Below, piece by piece: positions 322-10,864 of a DNA stretch of 10,864 nt. Location: the NCBI GenBank assembly GCA_020433835.1, contig JAGRBY010000206.1, positions 1-10,864 of the forward strand, written 5' to 3'. Source of the DNA: Anaerolineae bacterium (GTDB lineage Bacteria; Chloroflexota; Anaerolineae; 4572-78; J111). Made by a program: the position numbers and the translations under genes. A model generated the notes under the pieces. That model saw only the letters and a list, made by a program, of their open reading frames with translations. It was not told the DNA's origin and searched no databases. Every line of letters begins with the position of its first letter. The first letter of the stretch is position 1.

Positions 322-3168
322 TTAGCCTGGATTCGCGACGGCGATGGTGATACCGTCACTGTCGCCATCCGGGTCGTGGTTAAATGCAGAATCGTACGGT
401 GCTGAATTGACCACATCGATCACCGTAAAGGTGACTTCGTTCTCAAACTGGTTCGAGTTGACCGCCTGGCTCACGCTGCATTGACCGCTGGCATTCGTGC
501 TACACGTTAACGTCGATGTAGCCTGGGAGCCGTTCGACTTACGAATTCGGATAGCGTTGACCGTGACCGTAGCCCCGTTGACAGAGTTGTGATCCACATC
601 ATGGACCGTGACGACCACCTGGGCATTCCAATTGGGACCACCTGCCGGGGCGGAAGTATCATCCAGGTCGCCAACGTGGATATTGTTATGGGCGACAGTG
701 GTTAAATTAGATGACGCAGACTTGCTGTTATCTCCCTGAGAGGTAACCGTTACCGTTGCCACATCACTATCAGCATCACTAGCACCCGTCGGGATGGTCA
801 CATCGACGGTGATCTGGGCCGTTTCACCTGCTACCAGCGGACCAACAACTGATGGAGCTGAAGTTGCCCATAGATTTCCGTCGACACTCACATCGAAGGT
901 ATCTGCCACATTGCCGTCATTAGTCACATCCAGCGTATAGGAAATCACATCGCCCGGCGCACCAGACTGAGAGTCAGCTTCTGGAGCAATTGAGACAGCG
1001 TTAACCGAGTTGACGGTGGTGTCTTCAGACGTGCTGTTGTCGGCGAGGTTGGGATCACTGGTGTCAGAGGTGACGCTGGCATTGTTGGTAATCACGCCAT
1101 TTGCGTTGGTGGTAACCTCGATAGTTACGGCTGCATTATCGCTACTGGCGATGCTGCCCAGAGCACAGGTGACCACACCGGTCGCCTCTGTACATCCCGC
1201 CGAGGCCGAAACAAAGCTGACATCAGCCGGCAGCGTATCGGTCATAACCACGTTATCCGCCTGATCAGGGCCACTGTTGCTGACGGTGATTGTGTAGATT
1301 ATGTTGTCGCCAACCGTGACCGGATCGGCATCATCGGTCTTGCTGATCGTTAGGTTGGCTTGCGGAGCTGCTTCGGGGTCAACTGTCGTATCCTCAGACG
1401 TGCTGTTATTGGCACTATCGGGATCGGCCGTGTCAGAGGAGACACTAGCATCATTGGTGATCACCCCGTCTACGGTGGTGGTGACCACGATAGTTACGGC
1501 TGCATTATCACCGCTGACGATACTGCCCAGAGTACAGATGACCACACCGGCTGACTCAGTACAACCCGCCGTAGCCGAAGCAAAGTTCACATCAGCCGGC
1601 AGCGTATCGGTCATAACCACGTTATCCGCCTGATCGGGTCCATCATTGCTGACGGTGACCGTGTAGGTCACAACATCACCAACTGTTACAGGGTCAACCG
1701 CGTCACTCTTGGTTATAGATAGATCGGCTCCTGAGACAGGTACCGGATTAACCGTGGTGTCTTCGAAAGTGCTGTTGTTGGCAAGGTTGGGATCGCTGGT
1801 GTCAGAGGAGACGCTGGCATTATTGATAATTACGCCCTCTACGGTGGTGGTAACCGTGATAGTTACGGCTGCATTATCGCTGCTGGCGATGCTGCCCAGA
1901 GCACAAGTGACCACACCGGTCGATTCTGTACAACCCGCCGTAGCCGAAGCAAAGTTCACATCAGCCGGCAGTGTGTCGGTCATAACCACGTTATCCGCCT
2001 GATCGGGTCCGCTGTTGCTAACGGTGACCGTGTAGGTCACAACATCGCCAACTGTCACAGGGTCGATCGCGTCACTCTTGGTTATGGCCAAATTAGCGCC
2101 CGGTGCAGGTGCCCCAAAGGTCATAAATGTTAGCATTCCGCCGGGGTAGGCGTTACCGTTGGTAACATACATATTGCGGTTGTATAAAGGCAGCGACCCA
2201 TCCAGGTCGGCTGTGTCATCAACTATCATGTCGGCGGTGGTGCCGGCCGGGATGATCTCGGCCACCACATCGAACGCATTAGGCAACTCGAAACCTTCTT
2301 TAGCGATCACCCGCTGGTAAGCGCCCAAAAGGGTCATCGAGGGATAATCGAAACCGGCGTTCAAGTAGCGCAGCAGTATCCGGTCGCCGGGATTGGCCAT
2401 GATGGGGGCGGTGTTGGGATAGCCCTGCCCATTGATAAGCCAATACGTGGGGTGGTAGTTGAGGAGATTAAACCCGTTTGGATTGGCGTTCAAATTCGGG
2501 TCTATCTCGCTAAGAAGAAGCACCTCTTCAACATCAAATATAGTCCCGCTACCATCATAGGCCTGCCCTGAAGATGAACCGCTCAAGGGGGCCGTGTCGA
2601 CGATCAACGCGCCGTATAACCCCATGGGTATTTGCCGGCTGGGATCGGTGCCGCTCTCATAGAGATAGGTACCGGCTTGGGCGGTGAAAGTGTAGGTTGC
2701 ACTCCCGCCGGCACTTGCTTCCGTCGTGAACGTGCCGGATGAACCACTACTTCCCAACACATCTTGCCCTGGAATGAGGATCGAGGTGGCATCATTCAGA
2801 TTGTTAGTGAGAACAATAGTAACCTCGTCGTCTTTGTTAACCCGGATGACCGGACCCGGAAGGGTAGCGTCACCCGGAGCACAGGTATCTCCCAAAACAA
2901 AACCCCAGATATCGACAGAGCCGCCACCCGGTAGGGCCAATGTGCCAGTTGTAGCACACAAATCAATCGACACAGCTGCGGCGGCAGGGGCAGCAGGTTG
3001 AATAGCCGCCTCAACGGGTGGGGGTTGAGGCTGCGCCGGAGCATTTTGGATAAGGTGATCGGTGTCTGGGGTCTGCAATTTCGCTTGTACTGTGGTATGG
3101 ACCAGCAACAACGCCCAGGCCAGCAGGACGACACCCAACCCGATCAGTTTGATCATTCTTGTACGCAT
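322..3168 (-). CDS. MCO-C: copper-free multicopper-oxidase-like protein with three DUF11 repeats
   Basis: This is a 948-residue secreted protein. Residues 1-29 form an N-terminal signal or membrane anchor (basic MRTRMIK, then a hydrophobic stretch), followed by a Pro/Ala-rich linker to about 65. Residues 66-355 are two cupredoxin domains related to MCO-B next door (shared GTYLYESG, MGLYG, GGMLT). None of the copper motifs survive: HWHG becomes LIPG (131-134), HCH becomes ESG (171-173), the domain-2 HPFHPHG becomes PSMTLLG (276-282), and the final HSH becomes LYN (328-330). Three DUF11 repeats of 123 residues follow from 358. Then come a NEW3/CARDB-like beta domain (about 722-825) and an Ig-like end domain (about 828-948) with a DPDGDSDG acidic, possibly calcium-binding loop. 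There is no LPXTG or C-terminal membrane helix. The start is supported by AAAGGAGAA six bases upstream. It is last in the MCO block. I infer a structural or anchoring role rather than catalysis. Confidence 0.85.
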   Translation of the reverse strand: MRTRMIKLIGLGVVLLAWALLLVHTTVQAKLQTPDTDHLIQNAPAQPQPPPVEAAIQPAAPAAAAVSIDLCATTGTLALPGGGSVDIWGFVLGDTCAPGDATLPGPVIRVNKDDEVTIVLTNNLNDATSILIPGQDVLGSSGSSGTFTTEASAGGSATYTFTAQAGTYLYESGTDPSRQIPMGLYGALIVDTAPLSGSSSGQAYDGSGTIFDVEEVLLLSEIDPNLNANPNGFNLLNYHPTYWLINGQGYPNTAPIMANPGDRILLRYLNAGFDYPSMTLLGAYQRVIAKEGFELPNAFDVVAEIIPAGTTADMIVDDTADLDGSLPLYNRNMYVTNGNAYPGGMLTFMTFGAPAPGANLAITKSDAIDPVTVGDVVTYTVTVSNSGPDQADNVVMTDTLPADVNFASATAGCTESTGVVTCALGSIASSDNAAVTITVTTTVEGVIINNASVSSDTSDPNLANNSTFEDTTVNPVPVSGADLSITKSDAVDPVTVGDVVTYTVTVSNDGPDQADNVVMTDTLPADVNFASATAGCTESAGVVICTLGSIVSGDNAAVTIVVTTTVDGVITNDASVSSDTADPDSANNSTSEDTTVDPEAAPQANLTISKTDDADPVTVGDNIIYTITVSNSGPDQADNVVMTDTLPADVSFVSASAGCTEATGVVTCALGSIASSDNAAVTIEVTTNANGVITNNASVTSDTSDPNLADNSTSEDTTVNSVNAVSIAPEADSQSGAPGDVISYTLDVTNDGNVADTFDVSVDGNLWATSAPSVVGPLVAGETAQITVDVTIPTGASDADSDVATVTVTSQGDNSKSASSNLTTVAHNNIHVGDLDDTSAPAGGPNWNAQVVVTVHDVDHNSVNGATVTVNAIRIRKSNGSQATSTLTCSTNASGQCSVSQAVNSNQFENEVTFTVIDVVNSAPYDSAFNHDPDGDSDGITIAVANPG
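991..2097 (-). repeat. Three tandem DUF11 repeats, exact 369-bp period
   Basis: Within MCO-C, repeats begin at residues 358, 481 and 604, giving a period of 123 residues or 369 bases. Each contains the DPVTVGD, SGPDQADNVVMTDTLPADV-type core and a Cys pair nine residues apart (413/422, 536/545, 659/668), probably a disulfide. Conservation reaches the DNA level: a 26-base block starting at plus-strand positions 1241, 1610 and 1979 is identical in all three copies. DUF11 modules typically form extended beta stalks on extracellular proteins. The DNA identity points to recent duplication or ongoing gene conversion. Confidence 0.9.
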
Positions 3169-3210: not shown

Positions 3211-4470
3211 TCAGGGGCAGCCGCCCGGCGGATCTACCCGTACCAGGGTGAGCATGCCACCAAAGCCTTCATCCCAGTTTTGAATCTCATGGAGAGCGTG
3301 GCTGTGCCAGGGGAAGTAGAACTCGCCGCACTGGTTGAACGAGGTTACGCCGGTCGGTAGTTCTCCCTTCAGGCCCAGATGCTTATCTCCACTGTAGAAC
3401 GACACGTCGTCCTTAAAGGTCAGATTGCCCAGGTTAGGAAAGGGGAATTTGGTGCTATCCGGAATGTTGCCGTTGGAGCCTGGCGTCCACGCTTCAACGT
3501 TGTCCCAAGTAAACAGCAGGTCATAGGTTTGGCCTGCGCCGATAGTGGTGGTAAAGTTTTCTAATTTAGCCGCTCCCAAATAGTGGCCGTCGCGGCCGAC
3601 AACTTGCATCGTATTACCGTGAGGGTGGAAGGGGTGGTTGACCGTACCGGCGTTAGCATAACGGATTAAAGCCGGCAGATCTGCGTCCGCTTCGATCTGC
3701 ACCAAAGCGCTGTAAGGCTGGTGGGGCAACCAGACAACATCGTTGTCCAAAAGGGTGTCCACCGCGCCCCGCCCGTTGATCGTCCAGTAGCGATCGTGGC
3801 GGGTGGTGACCTTATAGGCCAGTCCAAATTCGACAGCTTGATGCAGATCGGGGTCAATTTCGTGCATCACCAGCAAGTATTCTCGGTCGGGGTCGAATGC
3901 GGTAGCAGAATTACTGTTGGCCCAGTCAGGGTGTCCAGCCGGACGCACTATCAAGACGCCGTACAAGCCCATTTGTACCTGCTTATGAGCATTTGAACCG
4001 CTCTCGTAAAGGTATGTGCCTGGTTCGCCGGCGACAAATTCATAGCTTACCGTTCCGCCGCCGCTTGCAGCTTCAGCAGCCAGCAGGCCGGTTGAACCAC
4101 CCGTCGCCGTCACCCCCATTTGTCCGGGGAAAACAATCGAGACCGGCTCGTTAAGATCATTGGTCAGTTCGACGGTGACTGTGACGCCTTCAGTTACGCA
4201 CAGTACCGGCCCGGGTATCTGGAACACGCCGGAATCCTGCCTGAAGCCCCACATATAGACGCTATTTCCATCCGGCGTGTCGATATAGCCTTCGGTGGCA
4301 TGCAAAGCGAAGTCGGTACCGTTCGTACATTCCATTGTGGTCGATCCGGTCGCGGCTTGCAGGTTGGGCCGGCCTATGGCCACACCAGGGAAGGCCCAAC
4401 CGATAATGAGCGCCACCGCGCCTACCAGGAGACCCATCCCAATAAGTTTATACCTTGATGTTGCCGTCAT
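3211..4470 (-). CDS. MCO-B: two-domain MCO-like protein with copper motifs only in domain 2
   Basis: A 419-residue exported protein. It starts with a Sec-type signal or uncleaved anchor (about 6-32, GMGLLVGAVALIIGWAF) and has two cupredoxin domains (about 45-178 and 195-415). Domain 1 has lost all copper ligands: the HWHG position reads VFPG (112-115) and the HCH position reads ESG (156-158). Domain 2 keeps HPFHPHG (H279, H282, H284) and, near the end, HSHALHE (H389, S390, H391, H394). The usual type 1 copper Cys is Ser390, so neither domain can form a standard type 1 centre, while four trinuclear-type His remain. Four cysteines (48, 91, 381, 418) could form disulfides. Its Shine-Dalgarno sequence overlaps the stop codon of MCO-A, suggesting translational coupling. 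Acting alone it should not work as a normal MCO; it could complete the active site of MCO-A. The reaction is unknown. Confidence 0.88.
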   Translation of the reverse strand: MTATSRYKLIGMGLLVGAVALIIGWAFPGVAIGRPNLQAATGSTTMECTNGTDFALHATEGYIDTPDGNSVYMWGFRQDSGVFQIPGPVLCVTEGVTVTVELTNDLNEPVSIVFPGQMGVTATGGSTGLLAAEAASGGGTVSYEFVAGEPGTYLYESGSNAHKQVQMGLYGVLIVRPAGHPDWANSNSATAFDPDREYLLVMHEIDPDLHQAVEFGLAYKVTTRHDRYWTINGRGAVDTLLDNDVVWLPHQPYSALVQIEADADLPALIRYANAGTVNHPFHPHGNTMQVVGRDGHYLGAAKLENFTTTIGAGQTYDLLFTWDNVEAWTPGSNGNIPDSTKFPFPNLGNLTFKDDVSFYSGDKHLGLKGELPTGVTSFNQCGEFYFPWHSHALHEIQNWDEGFGGMLTLVRVDPPGGCP

Positions 4471-4477
4471 TATCTGT

Positions 4478-4486
4478 TTCTCCTTT
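4478..4486 (-). promoter_or_regulatory. Ribosome binding site of MCO-B, abutting the MCO-A stop
   Basis: AAAGGAGAA on the minus strand begins on the last base of the MCO-A TAA (4486-4488) and lies seven bases before the MCO-B ATG (4468-4470). The whole gap is only 15 bases. This arrangement favours reinitiation by ribosomes leaving MCO-A and so coordinated production of the two proteins. Confidence 0.8.
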
Positions 4487-5769
4487 TAAAACGTCTTGTT
4501 AGGCCCGGTTTGGGGACCCAGAGTACCGGGGTAAACGCGAACCTCGGTCAACATACCGCCTAAGCCCGATTGGTTGCCATTGATCAGCCGCTGGGCGCTC
4601 CGATTCCGGAACCAATAGCGGTCGTAAGGTCCGGCCGCATCAGTACCATCCGGCGAACTACTATAAGGAGGAGCGGTGAACAACACATCGCGGGCTTCAC
4701 CCGCCCCCAGATAGAGACTATGCGTCTCGTAAGCGTTAGCCCCCAGGTAGGAGGCGTCCTGCCCGACAACCGTCATCGGGATGCCCGGCAGTTGCATGAC
4801 ATGCTGTTCGTAACCCAAGCTGGCGATGCGTAGCAGGACCCGATCACCGGCGTTGGCCTGAACCAAGGATGAGACCGGCTGTGAATAAAGGCCGCCACCC
4901 AGGTCAAAGTCTGAGCCGGGTAAATCTTGGTCGCGGATGATGGTATCCGGATAAGAGCGGCCGTTCATAACCCAATAGTCGGCTTTGTAGTCCGACCAAA
5001 CATTCTCCTGGACGTTTTCCAGGTTGTCGTGGGCATGGCTGTAGATCTCGTTGAGCATAAAGGTGAATTGCCGGTCGAAGGCCGTGTCGAGGGCGGGCGA
5101 CCCGTCGGAAAGGTCATAGACATAGCCGGGAGTGTAGGACTCGATGTAGACTACGCCATCCATCCCCATCTGCACGTGTTCCACATCCTCGAAGTGGCAG
5201 TGGTACATATAAGTACCCTCATCGCGAGGTTTGTAGTAGTAAGGGAAGTCTCGGCCCAGCGGTACCGCAATGGATACTTCCGGCACGCCATCGAAAACGG
5301 CGTTGGGGTTGCGGAAGCCGTGCCAGTGAACCGTGTGGGAGTCGTCCAGGTCGGGCCGCTGCACGAAGCCCAGGTTGGTCATGGCGATGTATAGATTGAT
5401 GTCTTTAGGGATCGCCAGGATGGGGGCCGGCCAGGTGACCTTGCCTTTATATTTCTGAATTAGCTTGTTGATTTTGGCGTAGGTCTCATTAGCTGCCACA
5501 GGTCGGAAGCCAAAAACATAGATACCCGCGTCATCGGCCCGACGACGACCCGGAAAAGACATCCAGCCGTCGGTAGCCAGCAGGCGAATGTCCATCGGGG
5601 TGGTCTGGAGGGCCGGCCTGGGTGCCGGCGCTGCCGCGGCTATCGGCAGTTCCTGGTGCAGCAGCCTATTCAGGCCACTGCCACCCATTAAGGCCAGCAG
5701 CGCGCCGCTGCCGCCCAATCTTAGGATATCACGCCGACTGACGCGGCGTGGCGTTCTTTTTTCAGTCAT
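4486..5769 (-). CDS. MCO-A: Tat-exported two-domain multicopper oxidase with copper sites only in domain 1
   Basis: A 427-residue protein. The N-terminus has a twin-arginine signal (SRRDILRLG at 11-19, then a hydrophobic stretch and an Ala/Pro region to about 50), as expected for a cupredoxin folded before export. Domain 1 (about 58-212) has HTVHWHG (H145, H148, H150) and HCHFEDVEHVQMGM (H190, C191, H192, H198, M203). By comparison with nitrite reductases and type C two-domain MCOs, H145/C191/H198/M203 should bind type 1 copper and H148/H150/H190/H192 half of the trinuclear cluster. Domain 2 (about 230-415) keeps the fold and the GGMLTEVRV end, but HPFHPHG has become HVMQLPG (323-329) and the final HSH reads NRS (389-391). 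It therefore lacks the other half of the cluster. The start has a strong GGAGGT site. First gene of the MCO block; it could be an electron acceptor or a split oxidase. Substrate unknown. Confidence 0.9.
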   Translation of the reverse strand: MTEKRTPRRVSRRDILRLGGSGALLALMGGSGLNRLLHQELPIAAAAPAPRPALQTTPMDIRLLATDGWMSFPGRRRADDAGIYVFGFRPVAANETYAKINKLIQKYKGKVTWPAPILAIPKDINLYIAMTNLGFVQRPDLDDSHTVHWHGFRNPNAVFDGVPEVSIAVPLGRDFPYYYKPRDEGTYMYHCHFEDVEHVQMGMDGVVYIESYTPGYVYDLSDGSPALDTAFDRQFTFMLNEIYSHAHDNLENVQENVWSDYKADYWVMNGRSYPDTIIRDQDLPGSDFDLGGGLYSQPVSSLVQANAGDRVLLRIASLGYEQHVMQLPGIPMTVVGQDASYLGANAYETHSLYLGAGEARDVLFTAPPYSSSPDGTDAAGPYDRYWFRNRSAQRLINGNQSGLGGMLTEVRVYPGTLGPQTGPNKTF

Positions 5770-5818
5770 GCTCTCTACCTCCGGTCATATCTTGTATAGG
5801 ATTGCATTTGTTATTCAT
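5762..5818 (-). CDS. Possible 18-codon leader ORF overlapping the MCO-A start
   Basis: Minus-strand ATG at 5816-5818 opens an 18-codon frame (MNNKCNPIQDMTGGREHD) that stops at 5762-5764, eight bases inside MCO-A and in a different frame. An AGGAG precedes its ATG by only three bases, shorter than ideal. The MCO-A ribosome binding site lies inside this frame, so translating it would affect MCO-A initiation. Tiny ORFs of this size occur by chance; I list it because of position, not because of any recognised peptide. Confidence 0.2.
   Translation of the reverse strand: MNNKCNPIQDMTGGREHD
5777..5782 (-). promoter_or_regulatory. Ribosome binding site of MCO-A
   Basis: GGAGGT on the minus strand, seven bases before the ATG at 5767-5769. 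It is the strongest Shine-Dalgarno match in the window and fixes the start so that the Tat signal is included in full. Confidence 0.8.
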
Positions 5819-5848
5819 CGTCTCCTACTTCACTTGTTCTCTTTACGC

Positions 5849-5890
5849 GCCCACCCTCCCTCTGTCCTTTCGACAAAGGAGAGGGTGGGC
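5849..5890. terminator. Strong bulged hairpin between the giant gene and MCO-A
   Basis: GCCCACCCTC (5849-5858) pairs perfectly with GAGGGTGGGC (5881-5890). After a six-base bulge on one side, TCCTTT (5865-5870) pairs with AAAGGA (5875-5880) around a CGAC loop. It lies 21-62 bases after the giant gene's stop codon. No U-run follows on the minus strand, so it may be a weak terminator, an mRNA-stabilising stem that separates expression of the giant gene from the MCO genes, or a dispersed palindromic repeat. Confidence 0.45.
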
Positions 5891-5910
5891 ATAGTCTCAG
5901 ATCGGCGAGA

Positions 5911-8900
5911 CTAGTTTTCGTCCGCACTCATATCGGGAGGTGTGCTTCGAGCGTCCAGGTCAATATCGACCGCTGGAGCGCTGACACCATCGAAGCTGGC
6001 CGCACCTTGATTGATGGTCGGCGATCCGTTGCTCAGATGATAGTCGCCCTGGTTGTCGCCAGGTGTCGCCGAAATGGCCACCCCGATGAACGCCGGCGCT
6101 CCCAACAGCGGCAACGCATGGAAGTTAAGGTCGATGGGGGTTTCCAGGAATGGGTCACCGATGAGGCAGTTGTTACCGCCGCTCGTACAGCCGTCGTAAT
6201 CTTTCGTCAACAGTGAGAAGTGGGGACTCATCGTCTCCGGTATGGCGGGCAAAAATACCTCTAAGTCGATGATGCCATTCAACCCGACAATAGTCGATAG
6301 CGGATTCAGCGGATCTGCTCCATCGTTCAGATACCAAGCCCGGTTATCCCAGACGACGTTGTTGAACATCAGTGGGTCACTGAAGTCGGTCGGCGGTGTC
6401 GGGTTGCGGTCCAAGAGGGCCGCGCTGTGGGGCTGGCTGGCGATACCGGCGACGTGCGGGCAGCTACCCAGGGCCGGTGGGCCGCAAGTCAAGCGATCGG
6501 CGTCTTCGGCCGTGGCGGTGGAGACGTTGCGGGCCACGGTGTTGTTGACGATCTCAACATCGAGCGCGTCATCAAGAGCCATACCGCCGCCTACATCGGT
6601 CGCCAGATTATTGACCACCATGTTGTTGACGATACGCACCTGACCATCGACCGGCATCAGCAAGCGTATACCGCCGCCATCGTCGTTGCTGAGGTTGTGT
6701 TGAATTAGGTTACGCTCGATGGTTACGTCACCGGAACCGGCTGACAGCGAGCCGGGCTGGATCGGCAGCTCGCCGGCGATCATGATCCCGCCGCCTTCGT
6801 CAAAGGCTGAGTTGAAGACAATCTGGTTGTCGTGGATTTGTCCACCGTCACTCAACCCAAAGTGAGAGATGCCGCCGCCGTACTCGGCCGACTGATTACC
6901 GCAGATGACGTTATGGTCGATCTCGTAGTTATCTGCATTGTTGAAGATAGCGATGCCGCCCGCCAGAATCAGGCCACCGTTATTGAGTACCCGATTGTGG
7001 TGGATGCGAATATCCTGGTTGAAGTTATTTCCAACGTAGGCCTGGCCCAGAATGATGCCGCCACCGGCGTTGCCGGCGTTAGACTGGATCAGGTTGTTGC
7101 TAACCATCAGGCGTCTGGCCTGGGCATGGGCGTAGATACCACCACCCTGAGACGGCGCAGCCGAATTGCCGGCACGGGCCGAGTCGCCGCCGATGATAGT
7201 GAAACCATCGATCTGGGTTCTGAAGTTGTTATTGTTATGGGTGCCACTCGATGTAGCCACCACGGTGACAGCCTGTCCAATCGGAACCAGGCCACCGGCT
7301 TGCGGTCCTACCGGGTTAATGGCGGCCATCTTAGCCTCCCAGGCATCCGTATCAAAGTTGGCACCCGCACCAAAGCCGAGGAAGCGGCCATCGATACTCG
7401 TCGCGTCGGGGCCGTAGCCTTGCAGTTTGACATTCTTGTAAACGATGGGGCTTTCGAAGTAGGTACCCGGATGGACGATGATCAGGTCACCGTTGGTGGC
7501 TGCGTCAATAGCGGCCTGGATAGTAGCAAACGTCTGGCCTGCGCCGACGTGCTTGATAGGTGGCCTATAAGCAGGGCCGCCTCCTTGGCCCAATATGTGG
7601 AAGGTGATGCCGGTGGGGCTGACCTGGCCGTTGGCATTTCTCACCAACAACTGATGCACACCTTGCGAGGGGCCAGTTGGGCCACCGGGGATAGTTGTCT
7701 GAATCTGGTTCGCGCTCCAACTGCTGGGCGATATTGTGGCTCCGTCTAACATAACCGATGGGTTGTCGAAGCCCGTGCCATTTATCGTGATGGGGATGGC
7801 ACTACCTTTGTTACCATAGACAGTCGATACGCTTTGCAGGTCGGGTGTGCCGGTGGAAACGTTACACAACGGCGGATTGTCGAAGCCAAAGCCGGTAATC
7901 GGGGTCAAGGCCACATCTGCGTAGGTCGTCTTGCCGGTCCAGACGTCCAAGGGAAGCGTCAGGGTGGCGTAGGCCGGGTTCCAGTTGGACAGCGGATGAA
8001 GCGGATCTTGACCGGGGTAGTTGCCTACCACCAGGTACATGGCCGGACAGACACCACCCGGTGTGGGGCACAGCCGGGTATAGCCGGAGGGCAGTAGTAC
8101 CTCAAAGAAACCATCATCGTCAGTGTTGACCACGGTAATCTCATTACCCTGGAAGTCCAGGATACCGACCGGTGTATTGGGCACGCCCTTCTTGCCTTGG
8201 AACATAACCGAGCCAGGGTCAAACTGAACGTTTAGGTCGTCGAACAGGACACCCCGGATAAAGCCGGGCGGTGGTACTTCGGCCGTGCCGGTGAAGTCGG
8301 TCGAGTCGCTGTCGTCGAAGTTGGTCATCACATAGAATTCGGCCGGCGGGTTGGTTCCGTCGATAACCCGCACGAACTTGCTGTCACATAACGGCGTCGG
8401 TGTGCTGTCGGCTGGGTTGCGCGGATCGTTAACTATGTGCAGTGGTCCGGCGCAGGCCGGCGGCGGCACTTGCGGAATAAAGTCATCGCCCTGATCGGTG
8501 TTCTGATCCTCTTCTTTGATGTGTCGGTAGCCGGGGGGAGCGACCATCTCAACAATGTAAGCGCCCTTCGGCGTGTCTTCAAAGGCGTAGCCGCCATCAA
8601 ACACACCATCCTGAATCTGGCTCATGTTAAGGGGCACTTCCAGACAATCGGAATCATTTATTGTTCCACCCAGTAAATTGGAATAGACACAGTTCGTGGG
8701 ATGATTTTCAATGTAAGAGTCTGTTGCGACGGAGTCGACCAGGTCTCCTGAGTCGGGGTCCGTTCCTGTCGCGGTAGAAACTCTTTGGTATTCACCCGCG
8801 CCATAGGGGCAACCGGGGCCAGCGGCTGTACAGGAGATCGGCTGCTGGTTAGCATCGAGGGCTGCCTCATAAAGGTTAATCGTCACATTGGGGACGCCCG

Positions 8901-10864
8901 GTTCGTAATCCTCAGCCGCAGCCAACCTGGGGTTAAACTCGTTGCGGGTAGCGGCGTAGTGGACGATACCGGAGATACCACCGTTTTCGCCGGGTCCATA
9001 AGGTGCCTTGCCAGTATCAATCCAGTGGTAGAAGCCGGCCAGCGTGATCTCGGCTTGCAGCAGCGAGGCCGCGCCAAATTCGGCCGGGCCGTTCTGTGGA
9101 TCGTAAGGATAGCCGGTGGGGATAGGAGTCAGGCCATCGCCGGGGAATTCGGTGAAATAGCCGGTTGTGCTCATCTGCTTCAGGCGGCCAAAGCCCACCT
9201 CCCAGATGAGGTAGTGCCCGTAGGGGAAATGGGTGGGGAAATCATAGTAGCCATCCGCATCGGTAAACGTGGCGTACTTGATCGATCCGTCATTAAAACG
9301 AATGTCAAGGTCCTGGTTGGGCAGTCCCTTTTCACAGGTAGCGGCATTGTAAGGATCAATTCCACCGCCGGCATCATAGCAGTCACGGATACCGTTCCCG
9401 GCACCGCCAGAAATTTCGGTACCATCTTTGGTCACGCCATCGTCGATGTACGTGTAACCCTGGATCTGACCGAACCACCTTGGCATAAGAATATCGCCGA
9501 TGTTAACATCCTCGTTATCGCCAACCTGAACCGTAGCAAAGGAGATAATGTAGAGTTGTGGCTCATCCCAGTAAACCAATTGGTACGTGCCGACAGGTAC
9601 GTTGGGGATAGTGAAGGTGCCATCAGAGTTGCCACGGCCGGTGTAAACCTGTTCGTCATTACCGCTTAGGTTGTTAAGGGCGATATAGGGCCTATCAACT
9701 GCCTTACCCGGTTCAACCTGAAACTCGCCGCCGGCCTCAGAGGCTTCGCGTACGCGCCCCGTGATAGAGCCGCCGCCAGCCGTATTATTGGTCGGACAGT
9801 CATCCGAGGTGCTGCCGAAGCTGCACTCGTGGACGAAACCAATTGCTACCGCCGGCCCGAGCACGCCCGCCTCGGTGATAAAGCCTTTGTTACCTTCCTC
9901 TACCCAGGCATCAACGGTGTGGGTGCCTTCGATGGTGCTAGTCTGAATCCATCCCTCTCCATCCGGCGGAACGACAAAGGCGCCATACTTGCCTGGACCA
10001 AGGTTGGGGATGGTGACCTCGCCGTTGGCGTCGGTCAAGCACTGGCCGCCGGTGTCAGGGTCAGGATTCCCGGCCCCGTCATACTTAGTGCAGATCGGGT
10101 TGCCGTAAAAATCCACCGAGACTTCGCCGGTACCATCTTCGAGCAATATGGCAAAGCCCTCTAGCCCCTCCTCGACCGGAACGTCGGGGGCACCGTTAAC
10201 CATAAGGTTATCGTGGTGAACGACCACATTGATCGAAGCCAGGGGCAGTGGCCCGGGTACCAGGCCCACAGCGACAGTGTCGTCATCAGGCACCGAGAAG
10301 TGCTTGCCGCTCATCTTGTAACCACCCGGCGTTGGGGGGAAAGGTCCGCCCATGACGGAAACCAAATATTTTTTGCCATCCGGCAGGCAGATGGTGGCGG
10401 AGGTATCATCACCAACAGCCATGACCGGGCTGTAGCTGCGGGGACTATTGAGCGATGGGGGATATCCCTCATCGGCCTGATTGGCGATATCCTCGTTAAC
10501 AATAAATCGAAAACCGGGGTCGTTTGCCAGATCAGCATTGGTATCGCGGTCGAAAGCCGTAATAGTTACAGCGTGCGAACCCGGATATGTATCAGCAGTA
10601 CCGCAAATCCACGGTCCCATTGCCGGCCCCGAGGCCGTAACAAAAGTCGCCTGAGGCGCGACTTCGGCGGTTGGTTCGGATGTGATAGGTTCCGCAGTTG
10701 GTTCTGTGGCGGGTAGAATAACCGGTTCTGATGTCGGTTCCGGAGTCGCCTCGTCAGCAGGTGGAGCGATAGGTTCTGCGGTCACTTCAGAGGTTGCTTC
10801 CTGACTGGGTTCCGGCAGAGGTTCTGATGTCGCTTCGGTAGTCGGTTCCGACGTGGGTTCTGCT
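5911..10864 (-). CDS. Giant modular extracellular protein: SdrD-B-like domains, IPT/TIG, parallel beta-helix (N-terminus off window)
   Basis: The frame is open to the right edge, so the true start and any signal peptide are missing. The GTG at 10783-10785 lies inside a repetitive EPTSEP linker and is unlikely to be the start. At least 1650 residues are visible. Numbering from that GTG: an acidic Pro/Thr linker (to about 42); a first beta-domain region (about 45-320); carboxypeptidase-regulatory/SdrD-B-like domains (about 338-435, 438-530, 600-760, 840-960) with DANGEVTIPNLGPGKY, DGTFTIPNVPVGTY and DADGYYDFP hallmarks; an IPT/TIG domain (about 978-1066); and a right-handed beta-helix (about 1080-1480) opening with GAGQTFATIQAAIDAATNGD. 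A choice-of-anchor-Q-like end (about 1580-1624, DYHLSNGSP...DMSADE) closes it, with no sorting signal after. Many Cys pairs fit an extracytoplasmic location. The family suggests a surface adhesin or scaffold; no lyase catalytic residues were recognised. Confidence 0.88.
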   Translation of the reverse strand, partial: AEPTSEPTTEATSEPLPEPSQEATSEVTAEPIAPPADEATPEPTSEPVILPATEPTAEPITSEPTAEVAPQATFVTASGPAMGPWICGTADTYPGSHAVTITAFDRDTNADLANDPGFRFIVNEDIANQADEGYPPSLNSPRSYSPVMAVGDDTSATICLPDGKKYLVSVMGGPFPPTPGGYKMSGKHFSVPDDDTVAVGLVPGPLPLASINVVVHHDNLMVNGAPDVPVEEGLEGFAILLEDGTGEVSVDFYGNPICTKYDGAGNPDPDTGGQCLTDANGEVTIPNLGPGKYGAFVVPPDGEGWIQTSTIEGTHTVDAWVEEGNKGFITEAGVLGPAVAIGFVHECSFGSTSDDCPTNNTAGGGSITGRVREASEAGGEFQVEPGKAVDRPYIALNNLSGNDEQVYTGRGNSDGTFTIPNVPVGTYQLVYWDEPQLYIISFATVQVGDNEDVNIGDILMPRWFGQIQGYTYIDDGVTKDGTEISGGAGNGIRDCYDAGGGIDPYNAATCEKGLPNQDLDIRFNDGSIKYATFTDADGYYDFPTHFPYGHYLIWEVGFGRLKQMSTTGYFTEFPGDGLTPIPTGYPYDPQNGPAEFGAASLLQAEITLAGFYHWIDTGKAPYGPGENGGISGIVHYAATRNEFNPRLAAAEDYEPGVPNVTINLYEAALDANQQPISCTAAGPGCPYGAGEYQRVSTATGTDPDSGDLVDSVATDSYIENHPTNCVYSNLLGGTINDSDCLEVPLNMSQIQDGVFDGGYAFEDTPKGAYIVEMVAPPGYRHIKEEDQNTDQGDDFIPQVPPPACAGPLHIVNDPRNPADSTPTPLCDSKFVRVIDGTNPPAEFYVMTNFDDSDSTDFTGTAEVPPPGFIRGVLFDDLNVQFDPGSVMFQGKKGVPNTPVGILDFQGNEITVVNTDDDGFFEVLLPSGYTRLCPTPGGVCPAMYLVVGNYPGQDPLHPLSNWNPAYATLTLPLDVWTGKTTYADVALTPITGFGFDNPPLCNVSTGTPDLQSVSTVYGNKGSAIPITINGTGFDNPSVMLDGATISPSSWSANQIQTTIPGGPTGPSQGVHQLLVRNANGQVSPTGITFHILGQGGGPAYRPPIKHVGAGQTFATIQAAIDAATNGDLIIVHPGTYFESPIVYKNVKLQGYGPDATSIDGRFLGFGAGANFDTDAWEAKMAAINPVGPQAGGLVPIGQAVTVVATSSGTHNNNNFRTQIDGFTIIGGDSARAGNSAAPSQGGGIYAHAQARRLMVSNNLIQSNAGNAGGGIILGQAYVGNNFNQDIRIHHNRVLNNGGLILAGGIAIFNNADNYEIDHNVICGNQSAEYGGGISHFGLSDGGQIHDNQIVFNSAFDEGGGIMIAGELPIQPGSLSAGSGDVTIERNLIQHNLSNDDGGGIRLLMPVDGQVRIVNNMVVNNLATDVGGGMALDDALDVEIVNNTVARNVSTATAEDADRLTCGPPALGSCPHVAGIASQPHSAALLDRNPTPPTDFSDPLMFNNVVWDNRAWYLNDGADPLNPLSTIVGLNGIIDLEVFLPAIPETMSPHFSLLTKDYDGCTSGGNNCLIGDPFLETPIDLNFHALPLLGAPAFIGVAISATPGDNQGDYHLSNGSPTINQGAASFDGVSAPAVDIDLDARSTPPDMSADEN
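6526..7152 (-). repeat. Parallel beta-helix coils (GGGI ... N-N-x-V-x-x-N)
   Basis: Inside the giant protein, about seven coils of roughly 27-39 residues each carry a Gly-rich GGGI/AGGI/GGGM turn (near residues 1213, 1241, 1275, 1303, 1331, 1370, 1399). Each is followed or preceded by an Asn ladder of the type HNRVLNN, HNVICGN, DNQIVFN, RNLIQHN, NNMVVNN, NNTVARN. The pattern is that of pectin-lyase-fold helices and resembles Pmp-type repeats. Such folds bind or cleave polysaccharides or act as adhesins; here only the fold is supported. Confidence 0.75.
7588..7854 (-). other. IPT/TIG domain region of the giant protein
   Basis: Residues about 978-1066 (numbered from the GTG at 10785) show the IPT/TIG pattern: a start 'GTPDLQSVSTVYGNKGSAI', the ITINGTGFDNPSVMLDG core, and an end HQLLVRNANGQVSPTGITF. 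The domain is an immunoglobulin-like fold common in extracellular bacterial proteins, and here serves as the joint between the SdrD-like stalk and the beta-helix. Confidence 0.8.
10660..10864 (-). repeat. Low-complexity Glu/Pro/Thr/Ser linker of the giant protein
   Basis: The frame encodes repeating PE-P-T-S-E-P style units (EPTSEP, EPTAEP, EPITSEP, EATSEP) right up to the window edge. DNA repeats of the GGTTC-(T)GATGTCG type are visible on the plus strand. Such acidic, Pro-rich linkers commonly separate a signal peptide or anchor from folded domains. They also show that the coding frame extends upstream of the GTG at 10785. Confidence 0.85.

Follow-up and report, generated by a model that had tools for sequence, protein, structure and literature searches.

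A putative heterotrimeric multicopper oxidase with its trinuclear copper site divided between two adjacent genes

The two-domain multicopper oxidases (MCOs) of type C are homotrimers in which both halves of the trinuclear copper cluster (TNC) are carried by every chain. The six-domain MCOs and their relatives (ceruloplasmin, hephaestin, factors V/VIII, and MnxG) form a ring of six cupredoxin domains with a single TNC. To our knowledge, each ligand-bearing gene of the MCOs described so far holds the whole ligand set, even when the site is located between identical chains. According to PMC13151041, types A, B, and C of the two-domain MCOs are defined by the location of the type-1 copper, and the TNC lies between protomers. 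In this work, we analyzed a stretch of DNA of 10,864 nucleotides from an Anaerolineae bacterium (assembly GCA_020433835.1, contig JAGRBY010000206.1; hereafter, the window is this whole stretch), which contains four genes on the minus strand, read from right to left: D, MCO-A, MCO-B, and MCO-C (hereafter A, B, and C; Table 1). We consider it likely that A, B, and C are the subunits of one heterotrimeric type C-like MCO, with one type-1 Cu, one TNC, and a ceruloplasmin-like ring distributed over three genes.

The multicopper-oxidase domains of Pfam were matched by A, by B, and toward the N-terminus of C, and each chain has two cupredoxin domains, as in the type C two-domain MCOs. The identity is 28% between A and B (329 columns) and 35% between B and C (274 columns), so the three proteins appear to be paralogs. 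Among named relatives, metagenome-assembled genomes of Anaerolineae are the nearest, with an A homolog (P0001) at 91% identity, and the named entries among the hits of the A and B families are mostly labelled as multicopper oxidases. The conservation of the ligands was evaluated on two collections. The first one included the best 120 of 2199 hits for A and the best 120 of 2978 hits for B, these totals being search matches and not tallies of true A or B proteins. The second one included 79 loci from a profile scan of genome contigs (86 relatives found, best 80 kept), spanning Chloroflexota, Actinomycetota, and Bacillota; Moorella and Thermincola are among the Bacillota. The scan patterns were derived from A (YHCHFED and PDLDD[SA]HT), and the 79-locus set is thus biased toward recognizable A proteins.

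Domain 1 of A has a complete set of copper ligands, as a preliminary description of this locus had reported: H145, C191, H198, and M203 for the type-1 Cu, and H148, H150, H190, and H192 for one half of the TNC. All eight residues are present in 120/120 homologs and in 79/79 loci, and by its ligand residues the type-1 Cu is confined to the N-terminal domain. The same description held that domain 2 of A lacks the TNC histidines, and this was borne out: in the window only H323 is left, Q326 and P328 stand opposite H282 and H284 of B, and N389/R390/S391 stands in the place of the HSH motif, opposite H389/S390/H391 of B. At these four TNC positions, A has no His in 113 of the 120 homologs (one in five, two in the remaining two) and none in 77 of the 79 loci (one in two).

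B shows the complementary pattern. The TNC positions of its domain 1 are occupied by V113/P115 and E156/S157/G158, in agreement with the earlier claim of a domain without ligands; none of the 120 homologs has a His at these four positions, and among the 79 rows from the loci 75 have none and four have one. This dead site has invariant residues of its own, P115, S157, and G158 being found in 120/120 homologs. The TNC half of domain 2 (H282, H284, H389, and H391) is kept in 120/120 homologs and in all 77 loci with B (78 of the 79 aligned rows, the other row being the second fragment of a B that was split into two profile hits in L063). The preliminary description had also listed H279 and H394 among the ligands of this domain, and here it has to be corrected: H394 occurs in only 6/120 homologs, while H279, which aligns with a His of type-1 kind, is found in 120/120 close homologs and is dispensable in the wider loci, where it is kept in 39/79 aligned rows and replaced by Tyr, Ala, Val, or Phe in 39. 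Since His279 is often lost and the four TNC histidines are always kept, selection on B appears to act on exactly those four. Furthermore, S157 and S/T390 replace Cys in 120/120 B homologs, and the placement of the type-1 Cu in A, as in type C enzymes, stands. Each protein therefore gives four TNC histidines, as had been proposed, and there is one set of eight per A + B + C.

The pairing of A and B is also maintained across genomes. B lies directly after A in 77/79 loci, and in the two loci without B (L013 and L052) the contig stops 147 and 302 bases past A. In addition, A and B were sought separately in two even samples of genomes, a design less biased than the locus scan: 301 genomes from the phylum of G001 and 246 from that of G004, 547 in total. 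The two centre genomes were carriers known beforehand, with two copies each; the sampled genomes G068 and G253 coincide with L072 and L059 of the 79 loci, and A matches were accepted at a profile E up to 1e-70. The first sample gave 10 A matches in 8 genomes and 9 B matches in 7, each of the 9 B matches adjoining an A; the tenth A (in G068) also stands with B and C, its B having a score of 370 bits and having been missed in the B search. In the second sample, 3 genomes carry 5 A and 5 B copies, each A adjacent to a B. B thus adjoins every one of the 15 A copies among the 547 genomes, and no A without B was found in these genomes or in the 79 loci, except at the contig ends of the two loci mentioned. 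The A frame of G295 is intact, with 494 open codons and the flagged TAG outside it, at its end. A divergent pair of copies in G515 has the A motifs and the four B histidines in both, with Ser in place of His279 in one. Two complete or partial sets occur in some genomes (L059/L083, L084/L085, L010/L036, and G001).

In the window, A and B are 15 bases apart, and the spacer (AAGGAGAAACAGATA on the coding strand) has a Shine-Dalgarno-like AAGGAG, 3' of the A stop and 5' of the B ATG, in line with the coupled ribosome binding site noted in the preliminary description. The same description suggested comparing co-occurrence and complementary residues across genomes, and both hold in three phyla. Its core idea of an obligate split MCO is supported by these two observations, and the reading of A and B as a split enzyme is well supported. 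Its choice of A and B as the whole complex fared less well: the split TNC remains supported, but C and D were not mentioned in it, and a complex of A, B, and C, possibly with D, is a better description.

C is the third cupredoxin protein of the set. Both the HxxHxHG and the H[CSWT]H motif are absent from the C module in all 120 listed homologs. A, B, and C are together on one strand in 74/79 loci, in the order A-B-C in 73 of them; the remaining one, L059, has two sets and was ordered by the script as B-C-A, although A-B-C is also present. In the five loci without C, the contig ends 0.2-0.8 kb past B (L021, L028, and L033) or after A (L013 and L052). In seven of the 120 listed C homologs, B and C are fused into a single chain, with the copper motifs in the B half; by Rosetta-stone logic, such fusions are evidence of a joint action of B and C. 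These fusions and two double-C proteins are the only multi-module chains among the 120 listed C homologs, A-B fusions having fallen outside the length limits of the A and B searches. P0244 and P0260 (671-696 aa) consist of two tandem C-like cupredoxin modules without a copper motif, and the Pfam list of P0244 includes a dockerin domain (PF00404). In a quick tree of 213 rows, covering 71 of the 74 complete loci (L001, L059, and L063 were excluded), each of A, B, and C falls on one side of one branch across phyla, with support values of 100, 98, and 72, and the ten Bacillota rows cluster together within each of the three. From this topology, the ligands appear to have been partitioned before the set spread among these phyla.

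The three subunits were modelled with AlphaFold2 as one read-through chain, from residue 50 of A to residue 365 of C, with the stops read as Gly. The fold is jointly confident, with a mean predicted local distance difference test (pLDDT) of 80.4 and a predicted template modelling score (pTM) of 0.84 over 1183 residues; by our own estimate, a pTM of ~0.35 would be expected for three independently placed modules. The alignment of this chain with single homologs (MAFFT) misplaced B and C rows on the A block and was dropped, while rows with two or three subunits and A singles aligned correctly. The 192 residues with pLDDT <50 are linkers, signal peptides, a loop of A (model residues 105-118), and a loop of B (model residues 717-763). 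The His blocks of B have mean pLDDT values of 82 and 86.

By E-value, the top 18 Foldseek matches of the A-B-C model are chains of factor V, ceruloplasmin, factor VIII, and MnxG, with 1286-1468 alignment columns, a TM of ~0.2, and root mean square deviations (rmsd) of 32.5-35.7 Å. Foldseek alignments follow the order of the sequence, and a model with its ring in gene order should give a close superposition; the large rmsd thus argues against a sequential ring A-B-C in the model. In a toy C3 calculation, the mean rmsd was 28.5-33.5 Å for a swapped ring and 12.8-15.9 Å for a swapped pair, and the A-B model differs from the rows of the six-domain family (including partial factor V/VIII chains) by 13.7-18.6 Å, with 21.4 Å for MnxG. 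These values are consistent with a swapped ring A-C-B, which would place domain 1 of A against domain 2 of B.

On these bases, we propose that each of A, B, and C would be a two-domain cupredoxin unit of one trimer, with the TNC at a subunit interface as in the homotrimeric two-domain MCOs and with one of the three interfaces live. At this interface, H148, H150, H190, and H192 in domain 1 of A would face H282, H284, H389, and H391 in domain 2 of B. Following the geometry of the type C enzymes, electrons would enter at the type-1 Cu of A and move over the His-Cys-His bridge to the A/B interface, where O2 would be reduced, with a metal ion or a phenolic as candidate substrate. C, which would be copper-free, would close the six-domain ring in the order A-C-B.

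The two halves of the site may also reach this interface by different routes. The N-terminus of A in the window is twin-arginine-like (RRDILRLGG), and the signal of B is Sec-like. Export was called with a simple hydropathy test and a loose RR pattern, not with a signal-peptide predictor. The RR pattern is near the N-terminus of A in 68/69 non-Bacillota loci, the exception being cut by a contig edge, and 60 of the 68 also have a hydrophobic stretch (by a cut of our own); B has a hydrophobic N-terminal stretch in 66/67 non-Bacillota loci. Outside the Bacillota, A is probably exported folded by the twin-arginine translocation (Tat) pathway and B by Sec, as far as these N-termini indicate. If A travels folded and B unfolded, the TNC would be completed only outside the membrane, with D as a probable scaffold. 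The ten Bacillota loci (L050, L053, L060, L065, L066, L070, L071, L073, L074, and L075) have an A with neither the RR pattern nor the hydrophobic stretch, and B has such a stretch in L066 only, where it is possibly 5' of its start. The Bacillota set may be a spore-coat complex or a spore-associated oxidase, an idea suggested by CotA, which likewise has no signal.

The support for C as the third member of the ring is good, and a number of points weigh against the assembly that we propose. In the model, the mean pLDDT is 63 for the A block with H148 (model residue 99) and 50 for that with H150 (model residue 101), and the H190-H192 block is weak as well (71). A and B without C give an only moderate pTM of 0.65, and joining A, B, and C by read-through favours contact in the model. 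The order of the ring is drawn solely from the rmsd values and from a toy model of random blobs, and module misalignment by Foldseek, or other compact arrangements, could also account for those values. Ceruloplasmin is not in the 50 best VIA-align rows of either model, which are mostly single two-domain modules, and no direct match to the quaternary arrangement came from Foldseek or VIA-align. The contrast between Tat and Sec is soft, the loose RR pattern being present also in 20 of the 67 B proteins. Finally, C is the most divergent subunit, with a clade support of only 72, and it could be an attachment protein instead of a ring member.

This last point leads to the strongest alternative, which we regard as unlikely: A and B would share a split TNC without C in the ring, in an assembly of the form A/B (heterodimer), A2B or AB2 (trimers), or A3B3 (hexamer), and C would use the cupredoxin fold in another role, at the cell surface or in adhesion. 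The complementarity of A and B by itself needs no C, long branches are flagged by the tree tool among the C rows, and the C-terminal part of C is made of long, variable repeats (DUF11 in the window, other domains in the homologs). However, the C module is in constant order in 74/79 loci and is also found fused to B, three two-domain units are needed for a ring, and the arrangement is more certain with C than without it, according to the difference in pTM between the A-B-C and A-B models. The heterotrimer of A, B, and C is thus the reading that we retain.

Table 1. Features of the window, with positions on the 10,864-nucleotide stretch
Feature	Position	Strand	Description	Basis
MCO-A	4486-5769	-	427 aa two-domain cupredoxin protein	ORF list and ligand alignment
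MCO-B	3211-4470	-	419 aa two-domain cupredoxin protein	ORF list and ligand alignment
A-B intergenic spacer	4471-4485	-	15 bases with Shine-Dalgarno-like AAGGAG	Sequence reading
MCO-C	322-3168	-	948 aa; two-domain cupredoxin module ~66-355, then DUF11 repeats	Pfam
D	5911-10785, open to window edge	-	At least 1624 aa; Ig-like/SdrD_B/TIG modules	Pfam/NCBIfam

The set is accompanied by recurrent neighbours. A D homolog (E up to 1e-5) is upstream of A in 74/79 loci, with the copy of L033 broken into several frames, and the order D-A-B-C recurs in Chloroflexota, Actinomycetota, and Bacillota. In four of the five loci without a D match the contig starts ≤0.5 kb from A; in the fifth, L062, no D match was detected in the 2.1 kb present upstream of A. 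A Pfam scan of five D proteins (from the window, L070, L005, L010, and L031) found SdrD_B in 5/5 and fn3_3, CarboxypepD, and TIG in most of them. The C-terminal part of D has a weak NosD/beta-helix similarity, with NosD below the cut-off in the window and in L005 and the beta-helix above it in the Moorella homolog (L070). D is probably a scaffold, a large conserved partner of the other three proteins. In the window, the frame of D remains open through 10786-10864 (minus strand), in a Glu/Pro/Thr/Ser-rich stretch, and D is thus truncated by the window edge. Between D and A (5770-5910, minus strand) the transcript can form a very stable hairpin of 18 pairs, with a z-score of -5.35, which a terminator scan of the coding strand did not report; it is perhaps an element of mRNA processing or differential expression.

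CopC or CopC-CopD genes lie close to the set in 33/79 loci (e.g., L003:15733-17688), 30 times downstream of C and three times upstream of D; their identity was checked with Pfam in 3 loci. This proximity suggests a dedicated copper supply. A small protein of ~166 aa, apparently with one membrane stretch, occurs in 28 loci (e.g., L003:14648-15145 and L002:10851-11417); in L003 and L004 it is located between C and the CopC-CopD genes, and three of its members have no Pfam match. Other recurrent BLAST clusters near the set, with one or two members each checked with Pfam, are histidine kinases (21 loci), response regulators (10), and S8 peptidases (19). The last are subtilase-like, e.g., L003:17630-19573 and L005:13403-15007, and two of them were checked with Pfam. 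In many loci a contig end interrupts the flank, and the neighbour counts are therefore a minimum.

A second alternative keeps the same assembly and questions its function: the complex would bind another metal set, or be a reductase or a metal store. This reading overlaps with the one that we prefer as regards the assembly, and as a whole we find it quite improbable. The loss of two of the three active interfaces and the presence in Bacillota such as Moorella, which are anaerobes, would both be unusual for a laccase; on the other side, the full 1 + 3 copper ligand set of the MCOs is conserved, and the CopC or CopC-CopD genes mentioned above accompany the set. Independent decay, which the preliminary description had offered as an alternative, with A as a blue-copper electron carrier, B as a leftover His cluster, and no TNC, appears extremely improbable and is contradicted by pairing and complementary ligands kept in three phyla: a type-1 centre alone could carry electrons, and dead cupredoxin subunits are known, but a carrier would not need the four TNC histidines that A keeps as strictly as its type-1 ligands (120/120 and 79/79), B keeps its own four and often not the type-1-like His, the genes are adjacent with the same pattern in three phyla, and the dead domain-1 site of B is itself invariant at three positions.

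Taken together, a widespread and apparently undescribed obligate heterotrimeric MCO can be envisaged, with an A-C-B ring, halves exported by Tat and Sec and joined outside on D, and perhaps a spore oxidase in Bacillota; for the whole of this picture, we see the chances as evenly balanced. If the reading is correct, genes that strictly divide one trinuclear site make up a heteromeric MCO kept in three phyla, and the set would be a living, gene-level parallel to the transition from trimers to ceruloplasmin. The route from symmetric trimers with three sites to rings with one site (ceruloplasmin and MnxG) would become testable, as would the loading of copper into a site whose halves are on different chains. 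Moreover, proteins of the A or B family expressed alone would be inactive.

Among the known systems, NirK has a two-domain trimer fold and a metal site at the interface, which is a mononuclear type-2 site. It appears among the VIA-align fold matches, and the likeness is in the two-domain fold, whereas A and B together differ from it by the eight His and the HCH motif of the MCO TNC. The NCBIfam model of copper nitrite reductase (TIGR02376) gave 19.9 bits for A, 37.2 for B, and 33.9 for C, against a cut-off of 296.3; the scores of the models for the names CopA, CueO, and ascorbate oxidase were also far below their cut-offs, and these names were rejected. The A module has its best fold match in the blue copper oxidase of Nitrosomonas europaea (3g5w), which we take to be a type C enzyme and which also ranks among the best sequence hits for both A and B. 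With type C MCOs, the set shares two cupredoxin domains per chain and a type-1 Cu in the N-terminal domain; a TNC between protomers is proposed for A/B. It differs from them in that the halves are on different genes, which would give one TNC per trimer, and in a third chain without a copper motif; neither A (no domain-2 TNC His in 113/120 homologs, at most two in the others) nor B carries both halves on one chain.

The open-licence PMC texts that were searched gave no paper describing a split or heteromeric MCO like this one. The manganese oxidase Mnx is a hetero-oligomer of MnxG with MnxE3F3, and MnxE and MnxF are said in PMC5622069 to have no known homologs. Mnx and the set described here are alike as bacterial hetero-oligomeric MCOs; Mnx, however, has one MCO chain with small subunits, whereas here the active site itself would be divided between homologous subunits. 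The recurrent neighbours of the set are C, D, CopC-CopD, and the others listed above, and MnxE and MnxF were not sought by sequence. The six-domain MCOs are one polypeptide, whereas in the window there are three separate open reading frames and no chain of six domains, and the putative ring order A-C-B departs from the gene order. For the six-domain proteins, a triplicated two-domain ancestor with three TNCs has been proposed (PMC3600357); compared with the ancestor outlined there, the A/B/C set would be a parallel in separate genes, with one TNC.

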